12,308 nt of DNA from the NCBI GenBank assembly GCA_009840695.1, contig VXNG01000035.1, forward strand, positions 1-12,308, written 5' to 3'. The notes under the pieces are model-generated. The model was not told the DNA's origin. It saw only the letters and a program-made list of their open reading frames with translations, and ran no database searches. This DNA is from Acidimicrobiaceae bacterium. GTDB lineage: Bacteria; Actinomycetota; Acidimicrobiia; Acidimicrobiales; Aldehydirespiratoraceae. Each line of letters begins with the position of its first letter. Positions within the stretch are counted from its first letter, which is position 1. Both the position numbers and the translations under genes were made by a program. This document shows positions 297 to 11,971 of the stretch, in pieces.

Positions 297-3200
297 TCAC
301 ACCAACCGAGTGTCGCGCCGCTGTTCGTAGAGCGCGAGGGCGTGCAGCGGGAAGTACTGCCTGTACAGGGCGTAGTCCAGAAGCGCGGTGCGGAAGAACA
401 CCCCGGCCGTGTCCTGCTTGGGCCATTGCCCGCTCTCGGCCTGGGTGTTGATCAGGAACCGCGCGCCCCGCGAGATCGCGGTCCAATCCGGATGGCCGGC
501 CTCGAGAAGAGCAATCAGCGCCCACGCAGTGTGGATGACCTGACTCTCGTCGTGCGCGACGTAGTGGCCGGTCAGGCAGCCGCGGTGGTGCTCGCCCCAC
601 CCGCCGTCGGGCTGCTGACGGTCCAGCAGCCAGCGGCAGGCTGCACGAAGCGCCGGATCGCCGGGAGCGGCCCCGGCGGCCAGCAGGCCTCGGATCCCGA
701 AGAAGGTGCCGTAGATGTACTGGACGCCCCAAGCGCCTCGCCACGACCCGTCGTGCTCCTGAGCCTCGCGCAGCCACGAGTCGGCTCGCGTGAGTGCTCT
801 CGCGACCTCCGCGTCCAGCACCTGAGGCGAGTGCTGCCGGCAGGCGGCGATCGCGGCCAGGCAGGACGCCGTGCACTCGACATGGGAACGCTCGGTCATC
901 GACTCGCCGAACATCTCCGCGGGATTCAGCCACTCGAGACCGACCGCTGAACGCCTCGACTCGTAGCTACCGAAACCGCCGTCGCGGTTCTGGCCCCGCA
1001 GCATGAAGCGGACGGCCTCGCCGAGCGCGGCGGGGCTCGCGGCCTCGGGGTCGGCTGCGATCATGCCTCGCACCGCTTCTGCGGTGCAGTCCGTGACCGG
1101 CCAGCCGTGCCACGCCCCGGCGAAGCACCAGCCACCCTTGGGGTCGATCCGGAAGGCTTCGCGGAACCCTTCGAAGCTGGTGTCGATCTGTTGGCGGCGC
1201 AGGAAGTCGGCGCCTCGCCGCAGCGCTCCTGCGACCTCCTCGATCTCCGGTACGGTCGCTAGCGCCTGCAGGGCGAATCCGGTGTCCCAGGAGGTGCTCC
1301 TGGCCCCGGCGACCCTTGTTCCGGTCTCCTCGTCCTCCCAGATCCAGCCCTCGAGCTGCGCCAGAGCCTTGCTGCAGTCGGTGTCGTGCGGGTCACGCAG
1401 CCACAGGCTGAGAATGTTGAGAAGGCCGCTGACCGGAGAGATGCTCGTGTGGTCGGTGGTCCGCAGCTCCCACCGGATGCGGTCGATGAGCTGAGCAGTG
1501 CAGCGGGCGCGCAGGCGCTTGCTTCCGAACCGCTCGTACAACCTTGCCAGCCCGTATCCGGCGCGCAGGCATACGCCGGGGCGGGCGTAAAGGTCGGCGT
1601 CCCTTAGCCGGTTGCGGGACGCGGCGAAGTCCACGCCGGCGAAGCCGTCGGGGTACAACTCCTCCCGCAGTGACGCGATCACGGGCGTGACCGGTGCTTG
1701 GAACCGCGCCGGGTAGATGGCCGCCATCGCCATGTAGATGAGCCGCGTGTGGCAGTACCAGTTCGAAGGATGCAGCGGCACCCGGCGCGGCAGCCGCCAC
1801 GACTCCGGCAGAACGGGGTTGACGCCCCGCCAGTCGTAGAGATTGAGCAGAGCCAGCCAGAACTTCCCCCAGGTCGGGATGTTGCGCACCCCCTCTGCCT
1901 GCAGGAAGCACCGGGCCGGCGCGATCAGCGGATCGTCCCGCTCGACGCCGAGCAGCCTCGCCGCGACGTAGACCAGGGTGGTGACGAACAGGTGCGGTGG
2001 CGAGTCTCGGTGCAGGCCCCAGGTGCCTCCGGCGAGGCGGGTGTGTTCGAAGGAGCGCAGCACGAGCCGGCGCCGGCCCGGATCAAGCGGCTGCTCTGTG
2101 ATGTGGTGCAGCAGCACGTACTGCGCGGTGAGCATGGGGCACCACACCACCTCACCCTCCCAGGAGCCGTCGTCTCGCTGAAGGCTCAACAGGTGCGCGG
2201 CCGCGCTGCGGAGTGCCGCAGAGGCATCGGGTGGGTCGGACTCCTCGATGCGGCCGGGTCTGGGATCGGTGCCGTGCATCGGCATGGAGACCGGAAACGC
2301 GCTGGACAGGATCGACCGAGCACGTTCCTCCCTGGCGGTGACGCCGCCCGCCTTGCGAAGCTGCAGCATCCCGCGGCCGAGCGAGAGGAAGCGAACCGCG
2401 ATCGCATGCACTATGGGGCGTGTCCGGCGCAGGGCAGAAGGCCTGTAGCACTTCCTGATCTCGGTTGCGAGCGCCCGCGCCGCCGTCGCCCCGACGGCCC
2501 GACTCAGGCTTACGACCGAGGTGTCCTCGCAGGCGAGCAGCCGGATGGTGCGGTCTCGGATAGCGGGCTTCTCCCGCCACTGCCGGTAGATCGTGCGCCG
2601 GAGCGCGGCGGCCTCCAGCCTGCGGTCGGCGAACACCTCGTACAGCCCCATGGCGAGGAGTTCCGGCGAGCGGGTCTCCTGGAGCCGCCTGTTGGCGAAG
2701 TCGCGATAGTCACCGCCTTCTGCTAGTGTGAACGCGTCGCCGAAGCCGAGGGTCATGCCCGCCGCCGTCAGCGGGTGGTAGTGCCCGGCGGCGTCCCCGA
2801 TGAGGACCCGACCGGGGGTGCCGTAGGTGTGGCGAGGCCTTATCGCATTGGTCGCAGCGAGGAACCGACCCTCGCGCAACGCTTCGAGGAACGCGGGACC
2901 CAGGGTGCCGGGCAGGCTGCGGGCGTATGACGCCGCCAGCGTGTCGATCATCTCCCGGGTCGAATACCCCGGCGGGACGTCCACGATCAGCCGGGCAGAG
3001 TGCTCCCCCAAGCGATAGATCAGGATTGGACCGCGCTCGGCGCATATGACATGCCCGTATTCCTCGAACGGCAACCGCACGTCGTTCAGCAGGACTCCGA
3101 GCATCTGCGAGTAGGTCTGCGGCTTCGTGGACAGTCCCAACGACCGGCGCACCACCGAGGCTCGACCGTCCGCTCCGACGATCAGCCTGGCGGCGACCGA

Positions 3201-3773
3201 TCCGGCTTCACCGTTGCGGGAGTAGGAGACCCGGTTGTCCTCGATGCTGCGCACACGCGCGTTCATCATCATGTCGACGCTCGGCTCGTCCTCGACAGCT
3301 CGGCGCAATCGTGAGACGAGTCGCTCGTGTTCCCACACCACACCGTGACGCCCGTCTGGATAGGGGAGGTGTATCGGCTCGCCCCCGTCCTCGGGGAACA
3401 CGACGAATCCCTTCCCCGGGATGCAGCCGGCGTCGGTATCAGCCTCCATTCCGAGTGCGCTGAGTATCCGCACCGACGGCGGATGCAGCCACTCGCCCGC
3501 CAGCCGCTTGGAGGTGTTCGGGTTCGCCTCGAGCAGGACGACCGAGTAGCCGTTCCGGGCGTGGGCCAGCGCGCACAGGCTGCCCACCGGACCGGCGCCG
3601 ACTATGGCGACATCGTATCGGCGGGGTTCGGCGCCACTCACCGGATAACCGCAGTTGGTGAACGTCGCCAGCACCGCAGCCGACAGGCTTCCTCCAGTCC
3701 GGTGCTCGCCACCGCGACATAGTAGTAGCAACATCCTGGCAGGGAGGGACCGCCGCCGACGATGCAGGCCCAT
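297..3773 (-). CDS. Squalene epoxidase-like / oxidosqualene cyclase fusion protein
   Basis: One open frame of up to 1158 residues holds two enzymes. Residues about 53-470 are a group-A FAD monooxygenase: GAGPVG at 59-64, GADGR at 200-204, and GD at 326-327 followed by HPLTAAGMT, close to the HPLTGGGMT of squalene epoxidases. Residues about 515-1158 are a triterpene cyclase with QW-type repeats (near 532, 928, 1005, 1053, 1111) and the oxidosqualene-cyclase motif DCTAE at 895-899, not the DxDD of squalene-hopene cyclases. Counterparts of human lanosterol synthase H232, W387, F444, D455, C456, Y503, C533, W581 and F696 are present (H675, W829, F884, D895, C896, Y937, C967, W1084, F1126). The inferred role is squalene to 2,3-oxidosqualene to a sterol or other cyclic triterpenol, probably membrane-associated. 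The start is uncertain: ATG 3773, ATG 3734, or GTG 3641, which begins just before the Rossmann fold; none has a strong ribosome-binding site. No other sterol gene is in the window. Confidence 0.88.
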   Translation of the reverse strand: MGLHRRRRSLPARMLLLLCRGGEHRTGGSLSAAVLATFTNCGYPVSGAEPRRYDVAIVGAGPVGSLCALAHARNGYSVVLLEANPNTSKRLAGEWLHPPSVRILSALGMEADTDAGCIPGKGFVVFPEDGGEPIHLPYPDGRHGVVWEHERLVSRLRRAVEDEPSVDMMMNARVRSIEDNRVSYSRNGEAGSVAARLIVGADGRASVVRRSLGLSTKPQTYSQMLGVLLNDVRLPFEEYGHVICAERGPILIYRLGEHSARLIVDVPPGYSTREMIDTLAASYARSLPGTLGPAFLEALREGRFLAATNAIRPRHTYGTPGRVLIGDAAGHYHPLTAAGMTLGFGDAFTLAEGGDYRDFANRRLQETRSPELLAMGLYEVFADRRLEAAALRRTIYRQWREKPAIRDRTIRLLACEDTSVVSLSRAVGATAARALATEIRKCYRPSALRRTRPIVHAIAVRFLSLGRGMLQLRKAGGVTAREERARSILSSAFPVSMPMHGTDPRPGRIEESDPPDASAALRSAAAHLLSLQRDDGSWEGEVVWCPMLTAQYVLLHHITEQPLDPGRRRLVLRSFEHTRLAGGTWGLHRDSPPHLFVTTLVYVAARLLGVERDDPLIAPARCFLQAEGVRNIPTWGKFWLALLNLYDWRGVNPVLPESWRLPRRVPLHPSNWYCHTRLIYMAMAAIYPARFQAPVTPVIASLREELYPDGFAGVDFAASRNRLRDADLYARPGVCLRAGYGLARLYERFGSKRLRARCTAQLIDRIRWELRTTDHTSISPVSGLLNILSLWLRDPHDTDCSKALAQLEGWIWEDEETGTRVAGARSTSWDTGFALQALATVPEIEEVAGALRRGADFLRRQQIDTSFEGFREAFRIDPKGGWCFAGAWHGWPVTDCTAEAVRGMIAADPEAASPAALGEAVRFMLRGQNRDGGFGSYESRRSAVGLEWLNPAEMFGESMTERSHVECTASCLAAIAACRQHSPQVLDAEVARALTRADSWLREAQEHDGSWRGAWGVQYIYGTFFGIRGLLAAGAAPGDPALRAACRWLLDRQQPDGGWGEHHRGCLTGHYVAHDESQVIHTAWALIALLEAGHPDWTAISRGARFLINTQAESGQWPKQDTAGVFFRTALLDYALYRQYFPLHALALYEQRRDTRLV

Positions 3774-4019: not shown

Positions 4020-4041
4020 AGTTCGTGTACGAACTACCTTA
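4014..4041. promoter_or_regulatory. 28-bp operator, copy 1 (likely MarR-family site)
   Basis: This is a near-perfect inverted repeat centred between 4027 and 4028. All pairs match except 4018/4037 and the central G/T. The core is TAGTTCGTGTACGAACTA (4019-4036). The 16-mer ATAGTTCGTGTACGAA (4018-4033) recurs exactly at 12028-12043 upstream of the GcvT-like gene. The site overlaps the putative -10 box and extends downstream of it, the usual geometry for repression. The regulator encoded at 5346-5897 is the obvious candidate ligand, which is inferred from proximity and the dimeric site shape. Confidence 0.8.
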
Positions 4042-4070
4042 TGTCGGCGGCGGCGCCTCCGGCAGGCAAG

Positions 4071-4078
4071 GGAGGAGG
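4071..4078 (+). promoter_or_regulatory. Ribosome-binding site fixing the start at 4086
   Basis: GGAGGAGG stands 7 bases before the ATG at 4086. It favours that codon over the in-frame ATG at 4041, which lies within the operator's last base and would put 15 extra residues ahead of a clean lipoprotein signal. Confidence 0.8.
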
Positions 4079-4085
4079 ATCCCAA

Positions 4086-5345
4086 ATGACTCGTCGATCA
4101 CGATGGGGCAGGCTGATCAGCCTGCTCGTTGCCCTGATGGCGCTAGCGCTCATTGCAGCCGCGTGCGGCGGTGATGACGACGGCGACTCGGCCGAACCGG
4201 TCGGCACGGAAGAACCAGCCGAACCAGAAGGAACCACGCCCGCCGCGACGGAAGAACCAGCCGAACCAGAAGGAACCACGCCCGAGCCGGCTGCCACGGA
4301 CGAACCAGCCGACGAGGACGATGACGGCATGGCGGTAGCCGACTTCGGCACGCTGGACTACATGGGTTGGGAAGGATACGACACGTTCTTCGGGGTGACC
4401 GAGGCGCAGTTGGCCGAACTCGGCATCGAGATCAACGCCACGTACATCGGCGCCCCGTCCGACATCGTCGCCCGGTTCGCCAGCGGGGGCGGCGCGGGGA
4501 TCGACCTGCTCGGGTGGACCTCGGCCGAGCATGCGCCGTACCGGGCCACCGAGGGTGTGCTCTCGCCCATCGCTCCCGAGGAGGTCCCCAATCTGGAGGG
4601 TCTGATCTCGCAGTTCGCCGACGACGAGTGGGACCACTTCAAGGACGAAGACGGGAACTGGCTGGCCATCCCCTTCAGCTTCGCTCCTCTCGGCATCACC
4701 TATGACAGCTCCGCGATCTCGCCCGCGTCCTACGCAGACCTGCTCGATCCCGAGTTGACGGGCAAGGTCGCCATCCCCGACGTGCCCGGCTTGCACCTAC
4801 AGGCGGCCGCGGCTGCCCTCGGCTATCCGGCTCAGACGCTCACGCCCGATCAGCTCGATGACGTCATCGAGTTCATGCGGGGAATCTGGGCGCAGGCACG
4901 GGTCCTGTCGCCCTCGTTCGGCGACGTGATCGGTCTGTTGGCATCGGGCGAGGTGCTCGCCAGCTACGGCGGGTACCCCGGGCTGGGCGCGTTCACCGAG
5001 AACCCCGACATCGTCACGGTCTTCCCCGAGGAAGGAACGTTCTCGTTCGTCGAGGTCTATTCGATCCCGGCCGACGCTGACAACCGCGAGGGAGCGCTGG
5101 CGTTCATCAATGCCATGCTCGACCCGGAGGTCAACGCGGCCATCAACGACGCCTTCGCCCAGGCCACACCGGTCCAGGCCTCGATCGAGTTGATCAGCGA
5201 CGCCAACCGAGCGCTGTATCCCTACGACGATCTCGATGCCTTCCTGGCTGCCAACCCGGTTTCCGCGCTGCCGACGGGCGAGGGCGGGTCGGTCTCGATG
5301 GGCGACTTCATCGAGGCATACGCCTCGCTGAGCACCGGCGGCTGA
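4086..5345 (+). CDS. ABC transporter substrate-binding lipoprotein, polyamine/betaine (PotD-like) class
   Basis: The 419-residue product starts with a basic stretch (MTRRSRWGR), a hydrophobic segment (10-26) and a lipobox ending LIAAAC with Cys27, so it should be a lipid-anchored extracellular receptor. Residues 28-82 are a low-complexity acidic spacer with a 14-residue tandem repeat (EEPAEPEGTTP...). The binding domain begins near DYMGWEGYD (91-99) and continues with features of the spermidine/putrescine-type family: a DLLGWTS segment, an IPFSFAPLGITYDSS segment near 195-209, and the LTGKVAIPD hinge-like segment near 224-232. It is first in the import cluster, ahead of permeases and ATPase, but separated from them by the inverted marR-like gene. 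Its promoter overlaps the operator at 4014-4041. The ligand cannot be read from sequence; a cationic or quaternary amine fits the neighbouring TMADH-like and GcvT-like genes. Confidence 0.88.
   Translation: MTRRSRWGRLISLLVALMALALIAAACGGDDDGDSAEPVGTEEPAEPEGTTPAATEEPAEPEGTTPEPAATDEPADEDDDGMAVADFGTLDYMGWEGYDTFFGVTEAQLAELGIEINATYIGAPSDIVARFASGGGAGIDLLGWTSAEHAPYRATEGVLSPIAPEEVPNLEGLISQFADDEWDHFKDEDGNWLAIPFSFAPLGITYDSSAISPASYADLLDPELTGKVAIPDVPGLHLQAAAAALGYPAQTLTPDQLDDVIEFMRGIWAQARVLSPSFGDVIGLLASGEVLASYGGYPGLGAFTENPDIVTVFPEEGTFSFVEVYSIPADADNREGALAFINAMLDPEVNAAINDAFAQATPVQASIELISDANRALYPYDDLDAFLAANPVSALPTGEGGSVSMGDFIEAYASLSTGG
4206..4284 (+). repeat. Tandem 37-bp direct repeat, period 42, in spacer of binding protein
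   Basis: The 37 bases at 4206-4242 are repeated exactly at 4248-4284, giving a 42-base (14-codon) period. The repeat encodes the Glu/Pro/Thr-rich spacer between the lipid anchor and the binding domain. Identity at the nucleotide level, including third positions, suggests a recent in-frame duplication. Confidence 0.85.
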
Positions 5346-5356
5346 TCAGCCGCCGG
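5335..5356. terminator. Perfect 22-bp palindrome across two abutting stop codons
   Basis: The left arm CCGGCGGCTGA (5335-5345) is exactly mirrored by TCAGCCGCCGG (5346-5356). The centre is the junction of the binding-protein TGA (5343-5345) and the complement of the regulator's TGA (5346-5348). In RNA of either strand it would form a 9-bp GC-rich stem with a GAUC tetraloop, so it could act as a bidirectional terminator or RNA 3'-end stabiliser. No U-tract is present, and a protein-binding site is also possible. Confidence 0.55.
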
Positions 5357-5897
5357 CTGCGGCCTCGTCCCGTAGGAGAGTCGTGAGCTGGTCGGCGACG
5401 CTGCGGAGCGCGTCGGCCAGCTCGCGGCGCCCGTCGGGGCCGAGGTGCTCCGAGAGTTGCTGCTCGCAGCGGTTGAGTTCGGGCCAGACCCGCTCCAGCA
5501 CGACGCGCCCCTGCTCGGTGAGCGAGAACAGTACCGCCCGGCCGTCATTGGGGCTCTGGCGCCGTTGAATGAGGCCGCGTTGCTCCAGCCGGTTCGCCAG
5601 CCCCGAGAAGCTCGAGCGGGCGATCCCGACCTCGGCCGCGACCTCGCGGCCCTCCATCTCGCCGCTCACCCGCAGCGCCCACAACGCGACGAAGCCCGAC
5701 ATTGAGAGGCGCTCCTCCGCCAGCGGCCCGCGCTCGAACAGTGCCTTCATCAAAGTGAAAGTCCAGTGCAGGTTCGATGCCACCTGGAAGGAACTCTGGT
5801 CGATGCCGAGTTCGCGGGCGAGCGCAACACCGCGTTGCTCGATGCCGTGGCGGGCCTCGAGCGGGTCGGTGAGACTGGTCCGGGACTGCTCAGCCAC
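5346..5897 (-). CDS. MarR-family transcriptional regulator
   Basis: The product has 183 residues if it starts at the GTG at 5897. It has a helical N-terminal region (about 20-60), then a winged helix-turn-helix: recognition segment EVAAEVGIARSSFSGLANRLEQRG (about 85-108) and the typical MarR wing NDGRAVLFSLTEQG (117-130). A C-terminal dimerisation helix pair follows. The N-terminus is about 30 residues longer than many MarR proteins, and no good ribosome-binding site precedes the GTG, so a later start is possible. It lies antisense within the importer cluster: tail-to-tail with the binding-protein gene, zero bases between stop codons, and only 17 bp head-to-head from the first permease. It probably represses the promoters at the two matching 28-bp operators. 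No copy of that operator lies in front of its own gene. Confidence 0.9.
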   Translation of the reverse strand: MAEQSRTSLTDPLEARHGIEQRGVALARELGIDQSSFQVASNLHWTFTLMKALFERGPLAEERLSMSGFVALWALRVSGEMEGREVAAEVGIARSSFSGLANRLEQRGLIQRRQSPNDGRAVLFSLTEQGRVVLERVWPELNRCEQQLSEHLGPDGRRELADALRSVADQLTTLLRDEAAAGG

Positions 5898-5914
5898 AGC
5901 CAGAAGAGTATGAG

Positions 5915-6805
5915 ATGATCGGTCAAACGAGTCGCAACCTAGCCACCCGAGCCAGCCGGGCGTCGCTGCTGGTCGCGACCCCGCCGGCCTTGGCGATGCT
6001 GGTGTTCTTCGTGGCGCCCATAGCCGTGGTGGTCGTCTACAGCTTCCTGACCGGCGAGCTCTTCCAGATCGGCAGGCCCGCGACCGTGGGCAACTACGAG
6101 AGTGCGCTGACTCTGGGCGTCAACCGGACGATGGTGTGGAACTCGATCGTCACCGGGACGATCACCGCCAGCGTGACGGTGGCCGTCGGTCTGCCCGTTG
6201 CCTATTGGCTGCAGTTCGGCGCGGGCCGGATGGCCACACCGGTGGTATCACTCGTGGTGGCTTCGATGTTCGCCGGCTACCTGGTCCGGATCTACGCCTG
6301 GCGTACCGTGCTCGGCTCCAACGGTGTCGTGAACGCCAGTCTCGAACGGGCCGGCCTCATCGATGAACCGGTGGGCTTTCTCATCTTCAGCCGGACCGCG
6401 GTGATCATCGCTGAACTCCATCTGTTGCTGCCGTTCGCGATCATCATCCTGTATGCCGCCATCCGCCCGGTGCGGTCCGAGTTGCTCGAGGCGGCCGAGG
6501 ACCTTGGAGCCGGCCCGGCCGTTCGCTGGCGGCAGGTGATCCTGCCGCTGATGGCCTCACCGATGGCGAGCGCGTGGACGTTCGTGTTCATTATCAGCTC
6601 CGCGGACTTCGTCACACCGCAGTTCCTCGGCGGGCTGAGGGGCCAACTGATCGGCACTCAGATCAACCGGTATTTCCGCGAAGCCGGCGACTACGGCAAG
6701 GGCGCAGCCCTGGCCATCCTGATGATCTTGTTCTATGCCGCGGTCTACGCCCTGATCCGGCTCGGCCTGCGGCTGGGGCGGCTGCATCGCGTCGACTGGG
6801 GCTGA
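5915..6805 (+). CDS. ABC transporter permease 1 (PotB-like)
   Basis: This 296-residue inner-membrane permease has about six hydrophobic segments (roughly 22-46, 76-100, 108-130, 161-183, 212-235 and 264-286). The cytoplasmic EAA loop, ELLEAAEDLGAGPAVRWRQVILP (189-211), contacts the ATPase. The family is that of spermidine/putrescine-type importers (PotB). The ATG at 5915 is preceded by an AGAAGAG run. Only 17 bp separate it from the divergent regulator start, so either its promoter lies within the regulator gene or it depends on read-through from the binding-protein promoter across the antisense regulator. The next permease starts one base after its stop, indicating translational coupling. 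Confidence 0.92.
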   Translation: MIGQTSRNLATRASRASLLVATPPALAMLVFFVAPIAVVVVYSFLTGELFQIGRPATVGNYESALTLGVNRTMVWNSIVTGTITASVTVAVGLPVAYWLQFGAGRMATPVVSLVVASMFAGYLVRIYAWRTVLGSNGVVNASLERAGLIDEPVGFLIFSRTAVIIAELHLLLPFAIIILYAAIRPVRSELLEAAEDLGAGPAVRWRQVILPLMASPMASAWTFVFIISSADFVTPQFLGGLRGQLIGTQINRYFREAGDYGKGAALAILMILFYAAVYALIRLGLRLGRLHRVDWG

Positions 6806-6806
6806 C

Positions 6807-7628
6807 ATGCACACGAGGAGAAGCATCCCCACGGCCGCCATCACTGTGGTCGCTCTCGTGTTCCTGTTCGCTCCTCTTGCGGTGGTCGTGCTGTTCTCGT
6901 TCCACAAGACGAACTCGCTCACACCGCCCTTTGAGGGGCTGTCGACTCGCTGGTACCGCGAGGTGCTCGCCGATAGAGCCGTCCGCAGCGGGCTGGCGAC
7001 TTCGCTTCGGATCGCGCTGCTGACCGCGGCAGCCACGTTCGTGTCCGGCACGGCGGCCGCCTACGGCGTGAGCCGCACCGAGTCTCGCCTCAAGACCGTC
7101 TACGGCGGGCTGTTCCTGCTGCCTGTGACCATTCCGCCGCTGATTCTGGGCATCGCGATGCTGTCGTTCTTCAGCAGTCGGGGCATCCCGCTGTCGACCA
7201 TGACGGTGGTCATCGCGCACGCGGTGTTCGTCGCGCCGGTGTTCTTCGTGATCGCCCGCACCGCCCTCGACCGGGTGGAGGTCGCCCAGCTCGAGGCCGC
7301 GGCCGACCTCGGCGCGCCACCGTGGTACCGGTTCTGGCATGTGATCCTGCCCCAGGTGCTTCCGGTACTGTTGGCGGGGGCGGCGATGGCCTTCGTCATC
7401 AGCTTCGACGAGTTCATCGTCACGTTCTTCGTGATCGGCAACGAGTCGACCCTGCCGCTGGTGATCTTCTCGCGGCTGCGGCGAACGATCGATCCGTCCG
7501 TGAACGCCATCTCCTCTCTGCTGCTGTTCGCCAACCTTGCGATCTGGCTGGTCGCGGTGGGTTATGCCGTTCGCCTGGAGCGCCGCCGGCGGCGCGACGC
7601 GCTCGCTCAGCGGGAGGGACAGCTATGA
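6807..7628 (+). CDS. ABC transporter permease 2 (PotC-like)
   Basis: This is a 273-residue membrane protein with about six hydrophobic segments and an EAA loop, LEAAADLGAPPWYRFWHVILP (162-182). FDEFIVTFFVIG (200-211) matches the equivalent segment in PotC-type permeases. It pairs with permease 1 to form the channel heterodimer. The ATG at 6807 lies one base after the upstream stop and has no strong ribosome-binding site of its own, so coupled translation is likely. Its stop overlaps the ATPase start in an ATGA arrangement. Confidence 0.92.
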   Translation: MHTRRSIPTAAITVVALVFLFAPLAVVVLFSFHKTNSLTPPFEGLSTRWYREVLADRAVRSGLATSLRIALLTAAATFVSGTAAAYGVSRTESRLKTVYGGLFLLPVTIPPLILGIAMLSFFSSRGIPLSTMTVVIAHAVFVAPVFFVIARTALDRVEVAQLEAAADLGAPPWYRFWHVILPQVLPVLLAGAAMAFVISFDEFIVTFFVIGNESTLPLVIFSRLRRTIDPSVNAISSLLLFANLAIWLVAVGYAVRLERRRRRDALAQREGQL

Positions 7629-8686
7629 CGGACCCGATCCGGCTGGCAGTGCAGGGACTCACCCACCAATTTGGCGACACCGAGGTCCTTACCGACGTCA
7701 ATCTCGATGTGCGCGACGGGGAGTTCCTCACGTTCCTCGGTCCTTCGGGCTGCGGCAAGACCACGACGCTGCGCGCCATCGCGGGGTTCCTGACACCAAC
7801 CGAGGGTCGGATCGTGCTCGACGGCGAGGACGTCACCGGCGTGCCTGCGCATCGTCGCCCGGTCAACATGGTGTTCCAGCAGAGCACCCTGTTTCCTCAC
7901 CTCGACGTGGGGCGCAACATCGCATTCGGTCTTCGGGTGGCGAAGATCGCAAAGGCGGAGATCAGCGACCGGGTGGCCGAGGCGCTGAGTCTCGTACGCC
8001 TGGAGGGATTTGAGCGGCGCCGCCCCACCGAGCTGTCGGGAGGTCAGCGCCAGCGCGTCAACCTAGCTCGGGCATTGGTCAACCGACCGAAGGTGTTGCT
8101 GCTCGACGAGCCGCTGTCGGCTCTCGACCTCAAGATCCGCCTGGAGATGGAAGTCGAGCTGCGCAGGGTCCACCGGGAGTTGGGAGCAACCTTCATCTAC
8201 GTCACGCACGATCAGCGCGAAGCCCTGGCCCTGTCGGATCGGATAGCGGTGTTCAACAGCGGCCGGGTCGTGCAACTCGGTAGCGCTGAGGCCATATACC
8301 GCGAGCCCCAGTCGGACTTCGCGGCCAGCTTCGTCGGCGACGCCAACGTGTTCGCCGTCGATATCGCCCGGTCCGACGCCGTCGAGGTGAGCACCACCGA
8401 CGGACTCAGGTTGCCGATCGCAGGGTCGGAGCGTGTGAGCGGGCCCCACTGGCTCGTCGTGCGTCCCACCGACGTCCGGTTCGGCCCACCGGGTGGCGCG
8501 CTCGAGGCGACGGTCATCGACGCCGCCTTCCGGGGGTCGGCCCTCACCTACCGGGCCGAGTGCACTGCACTGGACTCGACGGTCAAGGCTGAGATCCCCG
8601 ACGAGTGCGCGACTGCGGCCGTCGGCTCGCGGGTCACCGTGACCTGGAACCCGGACCGGGCCAGGCTGTTGCCCAGGCGCGACTAG
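7625..8686 (+). CDS. ABC transporter ATPase (PotA-like, with TOBE domain)
   Basis: The 353-residue product starts at ATG 7625, overlapping the permease 2 stop by four bases, with GGGAGGGA just upstream; the same frame stays open further upstream, but that part is not coding. It contains Walker A GPSGCGKTT (39-47), Q-loop Gln85, signature LSGGQ (137-141), Walker B VLLLDEP (157-163), D-loop SALD and the switch His195. After about residue 240 comes the regulatory TOBE-like domain seen in PotA, MalK and CysA-type importers. It energises uptake through the two permeases. The gene ends convergently with the dehydrogenase gene, the two stop codons overlapping within CTAG at 8683-8686. Confidence 0.95.
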   Translation: MTDPIRLAVQGLTHQFGDTEVLTDVNLDVRDGEFLTFLGPSGCGKTTTLRAIAGFLTPTEGRIVLDGEDVTGVPAHRRPVNMVFQQSTLFPHLDVGRNIAFGLRVAKIAKAEISDRVAEALSLVRLEGFERRRPTELSGGQRQRVNLARALVNRPKVLLLDEPLSALDLKIRLEMEVELRRVHRELGATFIYVTHDQREALALSDRIAVFNSGRVVQLGSAEAIYREPQSDFAASFVGDANVFAVDIARSDAVEVSTTDGLRLPIAGSERVSGPHWLVVRPTDVRFGPPGGALEATVIDAAFRGSALTYRAECTALDSTVKAEIPDECATAAVGSRVTVTWNPDRARLLPRRD

Positions 8687-10821
8687 GGCCTGATCGACAC
8701 CGACGCCAGGCTGTAGTCGTCGTCGGTGCCGCCCACGAGACGGCGCTCGCGGATGAACGGCAGAGCGACCGATGGATCGGGCGAGTCGAACTCGCGGGCC
8801 AGGCGGTGGCCGCTGAACACGCTCTGGGCGATCATCCCGGGCGTGTGGGCGTCGCCGATGAGATGGATCGACGCGATCCCGGCGTCGGCCAGACGGTCGT
8901 CGTCGGCGTGGAGTTCGTCGTAGATGTCGCACACCGAGTTGCGCTGGGTCACCAGTATCACCGAGTCGAAGTCGACGACCCGCTCCCGGCCCGACCACAG
9001 GTGCAGCAGGCTGCCGACGCCGCCCTCGACCGACAGCGTCAGGTGCTGGCTGAGAACCTCGACCCCCAGCTCGGTGAGCCGCTGCCACATGCGCTGCTCC
9101 TCCAGCGTGAAGCGGAGGTACTCACCGAGGCTGTCCCAATGGGTCACGTAGGTGACATCGCAGCCCTTCTCGGCCGCGAGCTGGGCCATAGCGCTGCCCA
9201 TGTAGTAGTTGTCGTGGTCCACGACCAGCACCCGCCGGCCCAGCTCCTTGCCGTCGACGACCACCTGCTCGGGAGTGCAGACGTGGGGTTGCGACGCGTC
9301 GGCGCCCGCGATCGGCTCGTGCATCGGGCCGTTCATGCCGTCTTCAGCCCAGACCGCGCCGGTGGCGATGATCACGTGCTCGGCCCCGTAGTCGACGATG
9401 TCGGAGGTCGACAGTCGGCTCGAGCCCACGAACTGCACGTTGTCGAGCTTGTCGATCTGGGTCTCGCGCCAGTCGATGACCCGCCGCCAGGCGCTGAAGC
9501 CCGGCATGGTGGACACCCAGCTGACGTGGCCGCCCATGCGCTTGTGGCCATCGACGATGTGGACGGCCTCATAGCCTCGCTTGCCGAGAACCATGGCCGC
9601 CTCGAGGCCTGCCGGTCCCGCGCCGACCACCAGAATGGCCGTGTCACGGTTCGAGGCCGGGGTGTAGTGCTCGGGGTGCCAGCCCCGCCGGTATTCCTCC
9701 CCGGAGGTCGGGTTCTGGGTACACCAGATGGGCGGGCCGCCGATCTCCCAGCGCGACACGCAGACGTTGCAGCCGATGCATTCCCGGATGTCATCGAGGC
9801 GGCCCTCCTCGATCTTCCGAGGAAGGTAGGGGTCACTTATCGAGGGACGGGCCGCCCCGATGACGTCGCATTGCCCCGAGGTGATGGCCTCAACCATCAC
9901 GTCGGGGTCAGTGAACCGGCCGACGTTGACGCACGGCTTGTCGGTGTGCCGCTTCGCGATGCGGGTGTAGTCGGCCTGATGGTTGGTGGCGAAGAACCGC
10001 GACGACCCGGCGTCCTCGCCCCAGTTGAGGGTGCCGACATTGAGATCCCAGTAGTCGACGAACGGGTCGAGGGTCTCGATGTACTCCGGAGCGTCGTGCT
10101 CGGCCCGGAAGCCGGCGTCGCCGTAGCCGTAGGGCTCATCGAGGGTGTCGATCGGCATACGGATCCCGATAGCGCAGTCGTCGATCGCGTCGCGCATCAT
10201 CTCCAGCACCTCTTTGGTGAATCGGATGCGGTTCTGGAACGAGCCGCCGTAGGCGTCAGTGCGCTTGTTGTAGAACGGATACATGAAGAAGTTCGTGATG
10301 TTGGCCAGGCCGCAGAACAGGGTGAGCAGATCGAACCCGGCGGCCCTGGCCCGCAGCGCGGCATCGACGTGCTCGCGCTGGATCTGACGGATCTCACGCA
10401 CAGACATCGCCCGGCAGCTGGCCGCGGAGATGTCGGAGGGGATCTGGCTGGCGCCCCGGGCCGGCAGGCGGGTCTCGGCGTTGTGGTTGAGCCCACCGCC
10501 ATGAGTCAACTCGACACCGGCCAGTGATCCGTGGGCCTGGACCTTCTCGCACATGAGGGCGAGGTTGCGGATGTCTCCGTTGTCCCAGATCCGGGATCCG
10601 ACCCACGGCAACGGATCGGAGTCGGGGGTCATGAGGCAGATTTCGGTGAACACCGCGGCCCAGCCCCCCTCGGCCTTGATGCCCCGGAACTCCGCCTGCA
10701 TGCCTGGCTTGTCGCTGCCGGCCCCATTGCAGTGGGGCACCTGCCAGAAGCGGTTGCGCAGAGTCTTCGGTCCCAGCGGGACCTGGTCGAACAGTACGTC
10801 GTACTTTGCCTCTCGGGCCAT
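8683..10821 (-). CDS. Trimethylamine/dimethylamine dehydrogenase-like FMN/4Fe-4S flavoprotein
   Basis: The 712-residue length is near that of trimethylamine dehydrogenase (about 729). The start at ATG 10821 follows GAAGGAG and gives MAREAKYDVLF, matching the TMADH N-terminus. Residues about 8-345 form the old-yellow-enzyme-type FMN barrel with VPHCNGAG (Cys31 equals the 6-S-cysteinyl FMN residue Cys30 of TMADH). The 4Fe-4S cysteines are 348, 351, 354 and 367. A dinucleotide-binding GAGPAG (400-405) opens the C-terminal domains. TMADH W264, D267, W355 and R222 have counterparts (W267, D270, W358, R221). TMADH Y60, W105, Y169 and H172 are instead I61, T106, F169 and L172. The inferred reaction is oxidative N-demethylation or deamination of a secondary, tertiary or cyclic N-methyl amine, passing electrons to a flavoprotein such as ETF (none in the window). 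It is second in an operon, 28 bp after the GcvT-like gene. Confidence 0.9.
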   Translation of the reverse strand: MAREAKYDVLFDQVPLGPKTLRNRFWQVPHCNGAGSDKPGMQAEFRGIKAEGGWAAVFTEICLMTPDSDPLPWVGSRIWDNGDIRNLALMCEKVQAHGSLAGVELTHGGGLNHNAETRLPARGASQIPSDISAASCRAMSVREIRQIQREHVDAALRARAAGFDLLTLFCGLANITNFFMYPFYNKRTDAYGGSFQNRIRFTKEVLEMMRDAIDDCAIGIRMPIDTLDEPYGYGDAGFRAEHDAPEYIETLDPFVDYWDLNVGTLNWGEDAGSSRFFATNHQADYTRIAKRHTDKPCVNVGRFTDPDVMVEAITSGQCDVIGAARPSISDPYLPRKIEEGRLDDIRECIGCNVCVSRWEIGGPPIWCTQNPTSGEEYRRGWHPEHYTPASNRDTAILVVGAGPAGLEAAMVLGKRGYEAVHIVDGHKRMGGHVSWVSTMPGFSAWRRVIDWRETQIDKLDNVQFVGSSRLSTSDIVDYGAEHVIIATGAVWAEDGMNGPMHEPIAGADASQPHVCTPEQVVVDGKELGRRVLVVDHDNYYMGSAMAQLAAEKGCDVTYVTHWDSLGEYLRFTLEEQRMWQRLTELGVEVLSQHLTLSVEGGVGSLLHLWSGRERVVDFDSVILVTQRNSVCDIYDELHADDDRLADAGIASIHLIGDAHTPGMIAQSVFSGHRLAREFDSPDPSVALPFIRERRLVGGTDDDYSLASVSIRP

Positions 10822-10849
10822 GGGTTCTCCTTCGTCGATGGGTCCGCGG

Positions 10850-11971
10850 TCAGCTGCGCACACGCGTGCGCTCGGGATCGAACACGGGCGTCGCCACGAC
10901 TTCGGCTCGGAACGAGGCACCGCTGGCCTCGCCAGTCAGGGCGGTCCCCACCGCGGCCGCCGACTTCCTGATGCGGGCCAGGCCGAGCGTTCGGCCTTCG
11001 AGATGCGGTGAGGGCAGCGCCATCGTGACCACGCCGACCGGTTCGCCATTGAGGGCGACGGGAGCGAACTCCGCCTCGGCCACGCCGTCGATCACGACGC
11101 TGACGACACGATCGGGAGCGTTGTCCCTCGCGGTCGCCAAGGCGTCGCGTCCACGAAACGGCCCCTTATCGAAGTCCACCGCCCAGCCGAGGCGACACTC
11201 GAACGGCGTCGAGGTGTGATCGTACTCCAGGTGGGCCATGACCATTCCGGCCTCGACACGGGCCATCATCACCGTGGCCGCGCCCGCCAGCCGCACGCCG
11301 GCGTCCTCGCCGGCCTCCAGCAGGACCGTGCCGAAGCTCACCGCGTCCTCGACGCCGGCGATGAACTCATATCCGAGCTCGGCGGTGAAACCCATCCGGT
11401 TGAGCTGGCCCTTGACCCCCGCGACCTCGATGTCACGGATGAAGTGATAATACGGCAGCGCTTCATTCGACAGGTCGGCGGCCGTCAGCGACTGCAGTAT
11501 CTCCCGGGATTTGGGCCCTTGGAACGATAGCTGCGCGGTGTCGTCGCGGCGCTGCACGACATCGACCCCCGCGGGTGCCGCATCGCGAAGCAGGGTGTCG
11601 TTGGCTTCTTCGTTGCCGCCTATGACCCTAACGAACCCGTCGCGGGGCGCCACAACGGTCACGTCGTCGATCATGGTTCCGTCGTCGGCCACGAACACTC
11701 CGTACGCGATCCGGTCAGGACCGAGGCGTCGCAGATCTCGCGAGAACACCGAGTTGACCGCCTCGAGCGCCCCGGGGCCGGTGACATCCCACCGGTAGAG
11801 CATCGAGAACTCCATCGCCGCCGCAGCCGTGCGCAGCGCCGTGTACTCCGCTCCGATGTCACCGCAATGCACAGGCACAGCGCAGCCGAACACGTCTATC
11901 CAGTCAGTGTCGAGATCGTCCGGATACAGCGGGCTGTAGGGGGTCGAGCGAAGATGCTTCGGTGCCGGCAC
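10850..11971 (-). CDS. GcvT-like aminomethyltransferase (folate-dependent demethylase family)
   Basis: The 373-residue product starts at GTG 11971, preceded by AGAGGAGG (complement of 11976-11983) four bases away. It belongs to the glycine-cleavage T-protein/DmdA/dimethylglycine-dehydrogenase folate-domain family. IDDVTV at 101-106 carries the conserved folate-site Asp, FTAELGYEF at 195-203 matches the GYTGExGYE segment of GcvT, and GLARIRK near 330-336 is the usual C-terminal signature. No gcvH or gcvP is nearby, so it is unlikely to be the housekeeping T-protein. Next to a TMADH-like enzyme it more plausibly transfers an N-linked one-carbon unit to tetrahydrofolate, giving methylene- or methyl-THF. 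It leads the two-gene operon and lies about 50 bp downstream of an operator-promoter overlapping at 12024-12070. Confidence 0.88.
   Translation of the reverse strand: MPAPKHLRSTPYSPLYPDDLDTDWIDVFGCAVPVHCGDIGAEYTALRTAAAAMEFSMLYRWDVTGPGALEAVNSVFSRDLRRLGPDRIAYGVFVADDGTMIDDVTVVAPRDGFVRVIGGNEEANDTLLRDAAPAGVDVVQRRDDTAQLSFQGPKSREILQSLTAADLSNEALPYYHFIRDIEVAGVKGQLNRMGFTAELGYEFIAGVEDAVSFGTVLLEAGEDAGVRLAGAATVMMARVEAGMVMAHLEYDHTSTPFECRLGWAVDFDKGPFRGRDALATARDNAPDRVVSVVIDGVAEAEFAPVALNGEPVGVVTMALPSPHLEGRTLGLARIRKSAAAVGTALTGEASGASFRAEVVATPVFDPERTRVRS

Follow-up and report, generated by a model that had tools for sequence, protein, structure and literature searches.

The window analysed here, a 12,308-nucleotide stretch of DNA from an Acidimicrobiaceae bacterium (contig VXNG01000035.1), carries on its minus strand one gene in which a predicted squalene epoxidase is joined to a predicted oxidosqualene cyclase (OSC). 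The product is very probably a natural bifunctional enzyme of the MsbE type, as judged from its sequence and modelled fold. We put at roughly 0.68 the probability that the protein is this enzyme, that it makes lanosterol and that the lanosterol escapes 14-demethylation, all taken together. The fusion as such is already in print from sponge bacteria. What was not met in the literature surveyed is the lone setting of the gene, the usual next sterol genes being seemingly missing in close relatives. The features of the gene are as follows; residues are those of the 1114-residue protein.

297..3641, minus strand: fused squalene epoxidase-oxidosqualene cyclase gene, most likely 1114 amino acids (open reading frame, Pfam, homologue starts)
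2340..3623, minus strand: squalene epoxidase half, about residues 7-434, including the C-terminal helices
3582..3599, minus strand: GAGPVG, residues 15-20 (alignments)
3480..3497, minus strand: GEWLHP, residues 49-54, aligned with GEFLQP of human SQLE
2751..2798, minus strand: GDAAGHYHPLTAAGMT, residues 282-297, aligned with GDAYNMRHPLTGGGMT of human SQLE
2241..2288, minus strand: linker between the halves, residues 452-467
300..2231, minus strand: oxidosqualene cyclase half, about residues 471-1114
1077..1097, minus strand: V849-T-D851-C-T-A-E855, with the product-marking valine (human V453) and the catalytic DCTAE (human D455)

The fused frame and its spread

The minus-strand reading frame at 297-3773 is open throughout, encodes 1158 amino acids and is the longest frame. 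Its uninterrupted course through the Pfam domains of both halves bears out the preliminary description, in which both enzymes were said to be fused in one frame. The extent given there, 297 to 3773, holds for the open frame; the start more likely lies further in, so that the gene runs from 297 to 3641. Most of eight fully read homologues begin at the position of the GTG at 3641 (residue 45 of the long frame), and two relatives (L001 and L002) have an in-frame stop nine codons upstream of their own GTG. The first ATG, at 3773, was rejected as the start on these grounds, and the protein most likely begins with the GTG and comprises 1114 amino acids. One homologue (P0075) has an annotated start 15 residues longer than the GTG-3641 position.

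In a whole-protein search, the 7996 candidates sharing most words were scored and 525 proteins were obtained at E ≤ 1e-5; the best 120 of the 525 span both halves, with 93-97% query coverage and 66-91% identity. An alignment of epoxidase halves, used to scan named genomes, confirmed 196 stretches, the best 80 of which, hereafter the named loci, include two from some genomes. Both halves lie in one frame of at least 1080 amino acids in 71 of these 80; the joint is present in a further five, whose frame stops early or runs into a contig edge, and is lacking in four. The 71 fused loci span eight named phyla, namely Pseudomonadota (36), Actinomycetota (9), Chloroflexota (8), Nitrospirota (7), Binatota (2), Acidobacteriota (1), Verrucomicrobiota (1) and Rhodothermota (1), with six loci of no named phylum. 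Whether other proteins share the two-domain architecture, a question raised earlier, is thereby answered by 71 of the 80 named loci and at least 120 homologues. L046-L051 are six of the seven copies from the window's genus, since their cyclase halves are identical to those of L002-L007. Two alphaproteobacterial loci (L071, L073) hold a stand-alone epoxidase 58% identical to that of the window; the only cyclase sequence there is a distant piece (37%) on the opposite strand.

In three genomes of the same genus (G002, G006, G012) both genes are split and adjacent, with 44-47% (epoxidase) and 69% (cyclase) identity to the window and 4 to 34 bases from stop to likely start. Such close neighbours within the genus might indicate that a sequencing or assembly error deleted the stop between two genes of this kind. 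The same joint is found, however, in many separate assemblies: 71 of the 80 named loci have it, as do the 120 homologues listed, and the seven fused-bearing relatives in the genus have open frames of 1120-1146 amino acids, the stops inside the G013 and G015 matches sitting upstream of the start. An assembly artefact is rejected, and the chance of a false fusion is negligible; the fusion is real and natural.

In the fused proteins, the linker (residues 452-467, with a predicted local distance difference test score <50, and probably flexible in the model) follows a segment similar to the C-terminal tail found in split epoxidases. The simplest reading is that the fusion arose from two neighbouring genes that came to be read in one frame. 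According to the preliminary description, known bacterial sterol makers encode the two enzymes as separate, sometimes adjacent genes; the fused kind had already been reported in sponge bacteria. Trees of each half were built by a quick method with 74 rows each, picked from many more, and a human root. The epoxidase tree needs three changes of the fused label, three being forced by starred branches, and the cyclase tree needs two, one being forced, with human root branches so long (6.38 and 7.16) that both roots are unreliable for the direction or number of fusions. The window clusters with the fused copies from its genus in either tree, with L052 as the next branch.

The two halves

The first half matches two Pfam models over their cut-offs, FAD_binding_3 (residues 53-351 of the long frame) and Squalene epoxidase (PF08491, long-frame residues 195-362; 90.7 bits against a gathering cut-off of 20.1). 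GAGPVG at residues 15-20 is presumably the motif that binds flavin adenine dinucleotide (FAD). Human SQLE is the best solved relative by both profile and fold, C-terminal helices included, well ahead of other solved flavoproteins, and human lanosterol synthase is the best solved relative of the second half, which is the outcome of the proposal to search each half separately. The HPLTAAGMT and DCTAE motifs pointed out in the preliminary description are both present, and its interpretation as a squalene epoxidase-oxidosqualene cyclase fusion finds support in the Pfam domains, the solved relatives, the motifs and the catalytic residues.

A reductase or hydroxylase of the same superfamily, rather than an epoxidase, could be thought to have been fused to the cyclase, as the models TIGR01988 (UbiH family, 100.7 bits) and GG-red-SF (71.9 bits) also score, although both stay below their cut-offs. 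PF08491, however, is over its cut-off, and the lead of SQLE over other solved flavoproteins is large. Moreover, the split version adjoins the same cyclase, and in two genomes it also adjoins C-4 demethylation-type genes (Rieske and oxidoreductase). The identity of a geranylgeranyl reductase or UbiH-type flavoprotein, the former having been named earlier as a place outside the epoxidases where this half might fall, is rejected in view of the scores below cut-off and the fold nearer to SQLE. A non-epoxidase is thus highly improbable, and profile and fold mark the first half as a squalene-epoxidase-like FAD monooxygenase.

SQHop_cyclase_N (522-815) and SQHop_cyclase_C (826-1150, both in long-frame residues) are over cut-off in the second half. 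The squalene/oxidosqualene cyclase model TIGR01787 is passed with 503.4 bits (cut-off 322.7), and the squalene-hopene cyclase model TIGR01507 remains below its cut-off (266.6 against 431.1 bits). Comparison with human lanosterol synthase reveals that the window keeps D455, C456 and C533, positions to which we ascribe catalytic roles, together with E459, H232, W387, F444, W581, F696, Y503 and Y707. Alignments and model thus mark the second half as a class II cyclase resembling oxidosqualene cyclases, its catalytic residues intact. Human position 453 is occupied by valine in all the rows counted: eight of eight from the genus, five of five from other orphan copies (those without the cluster genes described below), 54 of 54 from full clusters and four of four from split genes. 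In the bacteria tested in PMC4919349, as described in its sections consulted, V453 goes with lanosterol and I453 with cycloartenol, and of the three residues that mark lanosterol cyclases in eukaryotes, 453 alone is conserved in the bacterial cyclases compared.

In the proposed mechanism, the first half would epoxidise squalene to 2,3-oxidosqualene with O2 and electrons supplied by a separate reductase; the epoxide would then be protonated and cyclised by the second half, most likely to lanosterol in view of the valine at human position 453.

The lone setting of the gene

The neighbourhoods were searched with genes from L104 as queries (oxidoreductase, Rieske, ERG24-like and CYP51, the last label resting on a match to CYP51 structures, at best 361.8 bits); some loci are cut by contig ends. 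All four cluster genes are found around 55 of the 80 named loci, some of them around nine and none around 16, the copies from the window's genus being among the 16. A Pfam scan showed no ERG24-like, CYP51 or other cluster gene among the eight open reading frames of the window, and the 13-19 kb surrounding six of the genus's fused copies (L013-L018) contain none of the four. The whole-genome search for CYP51 covered 16 genomes of the genus at E ≤ 1e-25. It gave no match in the seven fused-bearing genomes (G001, G007, G008, G010, G011, G013, G015) or in the six with neither fused nor split genes, and a match in two of the three with split genes (G006, G012); the Rieske query follows the same pattern. 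The nine non-fused genomes therefore comprise two with a fuller pathway and split genes, one with split genes and no CYP51, and six without such a cyclase. At L020 and L021, from two smaller genomes (2.6 Mb) within the genus, the split epoxidase and cyclase come after SdmA/SdmB-like genes (Rieske and oxidoreductase), and CYP51 and ERG24 are located elsewhere in the genome.

Ten of the 16 loci without cluster genes nearby lie outside the genus. Five of them, L053-L056 and L060, are the neighbours of the window's clade in the epoxidase tree, and the genome-wide search gave no CYP51 for them except for a weak partial match for L055 (92.6 bits, 31%); nor was CYP51 found genome-wide for L105. The genomes of L062, L098, L106 and L115, which have no cluster at the locus, contain CYP51 or a piece of one. 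The full cluster is present at L052, the neighbour of the window's genus in both trees.

Squalene-synthase-family pairs occur in six of the seven fused-bearing genomes and not in G007, and three of the seven (G007, G011, G015), but none of the nine others, have a hopene cyclase that passes its cut-off. The Sterol_MT_C domain is found in 15 of the 16 genus genomes, with or without the cyclase, and in none of 14 control genomes; the sterol methyltransferase of the genus is perhaps used on scavenged sterols. A weak ERG24-like gene is present in 11 genus genomes, beyond the two with close ones. Because both are widespread in the genus, neither is tied to the fused gene. A P450 near the fused gene in G008 (L018, 6163-7503) was considered as a CYP51 and rejected; it is CYP125-like, a type that oxidises steroid side chains, with 284 bits to a CYP125 ancestor. 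Close copies of it (73-100%) are present in nine of the 16 genomes, comprising all seven fused-bearing ones, one of three with split genes (G002) and one of six with neither (G009). As the seven are close kin, this co-occurrence is weak evidence, a lead.

The absence of the other cluster genes around the gene and of a detectable CYP51 in its relatives may also bring to mind a decaying remnant of a lost sterol pathway. The frames are intact, however, the catalytic residues are conserved, and the ratio of nonsynonymous to synonymous substitution rates is low, 0.19-0.33 and 0.20-0.25 for the two halves, so that both are under purifying selection. Decay is accordingly improbable.

The neighbours of the gene in the window have no evident link to sterols. 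Polyamine-type ATP-binding cassette transporter genes (binding protein, two permeases, ATPase) occupy 4041-8686, with a MarR regulator among them (5346-5897, minus strand). They are followed by a trimethylamine-dehydrogenase-like flavoprotein (8683-10920, minus strand; 719.9 bits to 1djn) and an overlapping gene resembling GcvT and trimethylamine N-oxide demethylase (10850-11971, minus strand), a pair that looks like methylamine or betaine use.

Product, fate and known systems

Because no CYP51 was found in close relatives, the product in the window's lineage would not be 14-demethylated, and the pathway may end with lanosterol or a similar C30 triterpenol, or this compound may be handed on or tailored by other enzymes. 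Several observations weigh against this combined assignment. The top-scoring model for the second half, TIGR03463 (2,3-oxidosqualene cyclase), reaches 725.8 bits, short of its curated cut-off of 851. Two of the three eukaryotic lanosterol marks (T381, C/Q449, V453) are lacking, the window having A381, H449 and V453, and human positions 98, 233, 524 and 697 are changed in the window and its relatives. The position of human F444 is leucine in three of the five other orphan rows, and that of human D455 is glycine in one of the 54 cluster rows. The genus genomes are metagenome-assembled genomes (MAGs) of 84-95% completeness, which makes the absence of CYP51 likely and not proved for each. The occurrence of the CYP125-like P450 in all seven fused-bearing genomes implies that the product may not be the end product. 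Lastly, no expression or activity study of such a fused enzyme was among the top matches of a partial literature search.

The changes at positions 381, 449, 98, 233, 524 and 697 make another skeleton possible. Both halves might be active and the cyclase product be something other than lanosterol, such as another tetracycle or an arborane-like pentacycle, in which case the orphan setting would reflect a specialised triterpenoid and not a sterol. Consistent with this, no CYP51, close Rieske homologue or close sterol reductase was found in the fused-bearing genomes of the genus, these six active-site positions differ from the human enzyme, and position 98 is valine in seven of eight genus rows but methionine in 53 of 54 full-cluster rows. 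Valine is seen at position 98 in three of the four split rows too, however, and genus and full-cluster rows share their commonest residue at 40 of the 42 tabulated positions (the exceptions being 98 and 454). The valine at 453, constant in all rows and correlated with lanosterol in the bacteria tested in the sections consulted of PMC4919349, also argues for lanosterol. We therefore consider a non-lanosterol product unlikely and retain lanosterol as the expected one. A broader and decidedly tentative proposal is that, in this Acidimicrobiaceae lineage, the fused enzyme has become detached from the usual sterol pathway and is maintained by selection. It would make a fully methylated C30 triterpenol, lanosterol or another skeleton, which might be used as is, passed to the community or side-chain-oxidised by the CYP125-like P450, without 14- or 4-demethylation.

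According to the available description of MsbE, an N-terminal epoxidase and a C-terminal cyclase are encoded in one gene and the valine that marks lanosterol cyclases is present, as in the window. In contrast to the window gene, which stands alone, MsbE is described as clustered with msbA-D and msbF (oxidoreductase, Rieske, reductase, 14-demethylase and methyltransferase). The kinship with MsbE was judged from the 80 named loci, of which 55 have the four msbA-D-like genes nearby.

In Methylococcus, Gemmata, Stigmatella and others, squalene monooxygenase (SMO) and OSC are separate genes. The same two reactions are expected of these enzymes and the V453 rule is shared, but Table 2 of PMC4919349, among the parts consulted, lists no actinobacterium, unlike the window. 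The LSS/ERG7 of the CSG from Ircinia symbionts has a codon alignment of 3765 positions that fits the fused length, and the section of PMC9531527 concerned is silent on fusion; that CSG unites ERG24, CYP51 and LSS, whereas the window shows neither ERG24 nor CYP51. The sections consulted of the same paper report ERG24-CYP51-LSS clusters in 115 of 537 Ircinia MAGs from 10 phyla, with signs of horizontal transfer, and LSS in Acidimicrobiia and classes of nine other phyla. Fused SMO/OSC homologues were trimmed for a tree by Brown et al. 2023 (PMC10070321), where the portion consulted mentions them in the methods and the enzymes tested are sterol methyltransferases, as opposed to the fused SMO/OSC considered here. 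PMC10202945, in the part available, gives numbers of isolates and MAGs that carry SMO and OSC, and lists actinobacteria among the carriers of complex-sterol genes.

The fused gene would provide a one-piece natural enzyme that takes squalene through the first two steps towards sterols. Widespread in uncultured bacteria, such an enzyme would have possible use as a tool for obtaining oxidosqualene products from one protein and as a test bed for direct passing of the epoxide between the halves. If the orphan reading is true, there are bacteria that make lanosterol-type lipids without demethylation, which would bear on the reading of sterane biomarkers and on feeding relations within the community. 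The question of interest is why the lineage has retained a fused enzyme for the first two steps while seemingly lacking those that usually follow.
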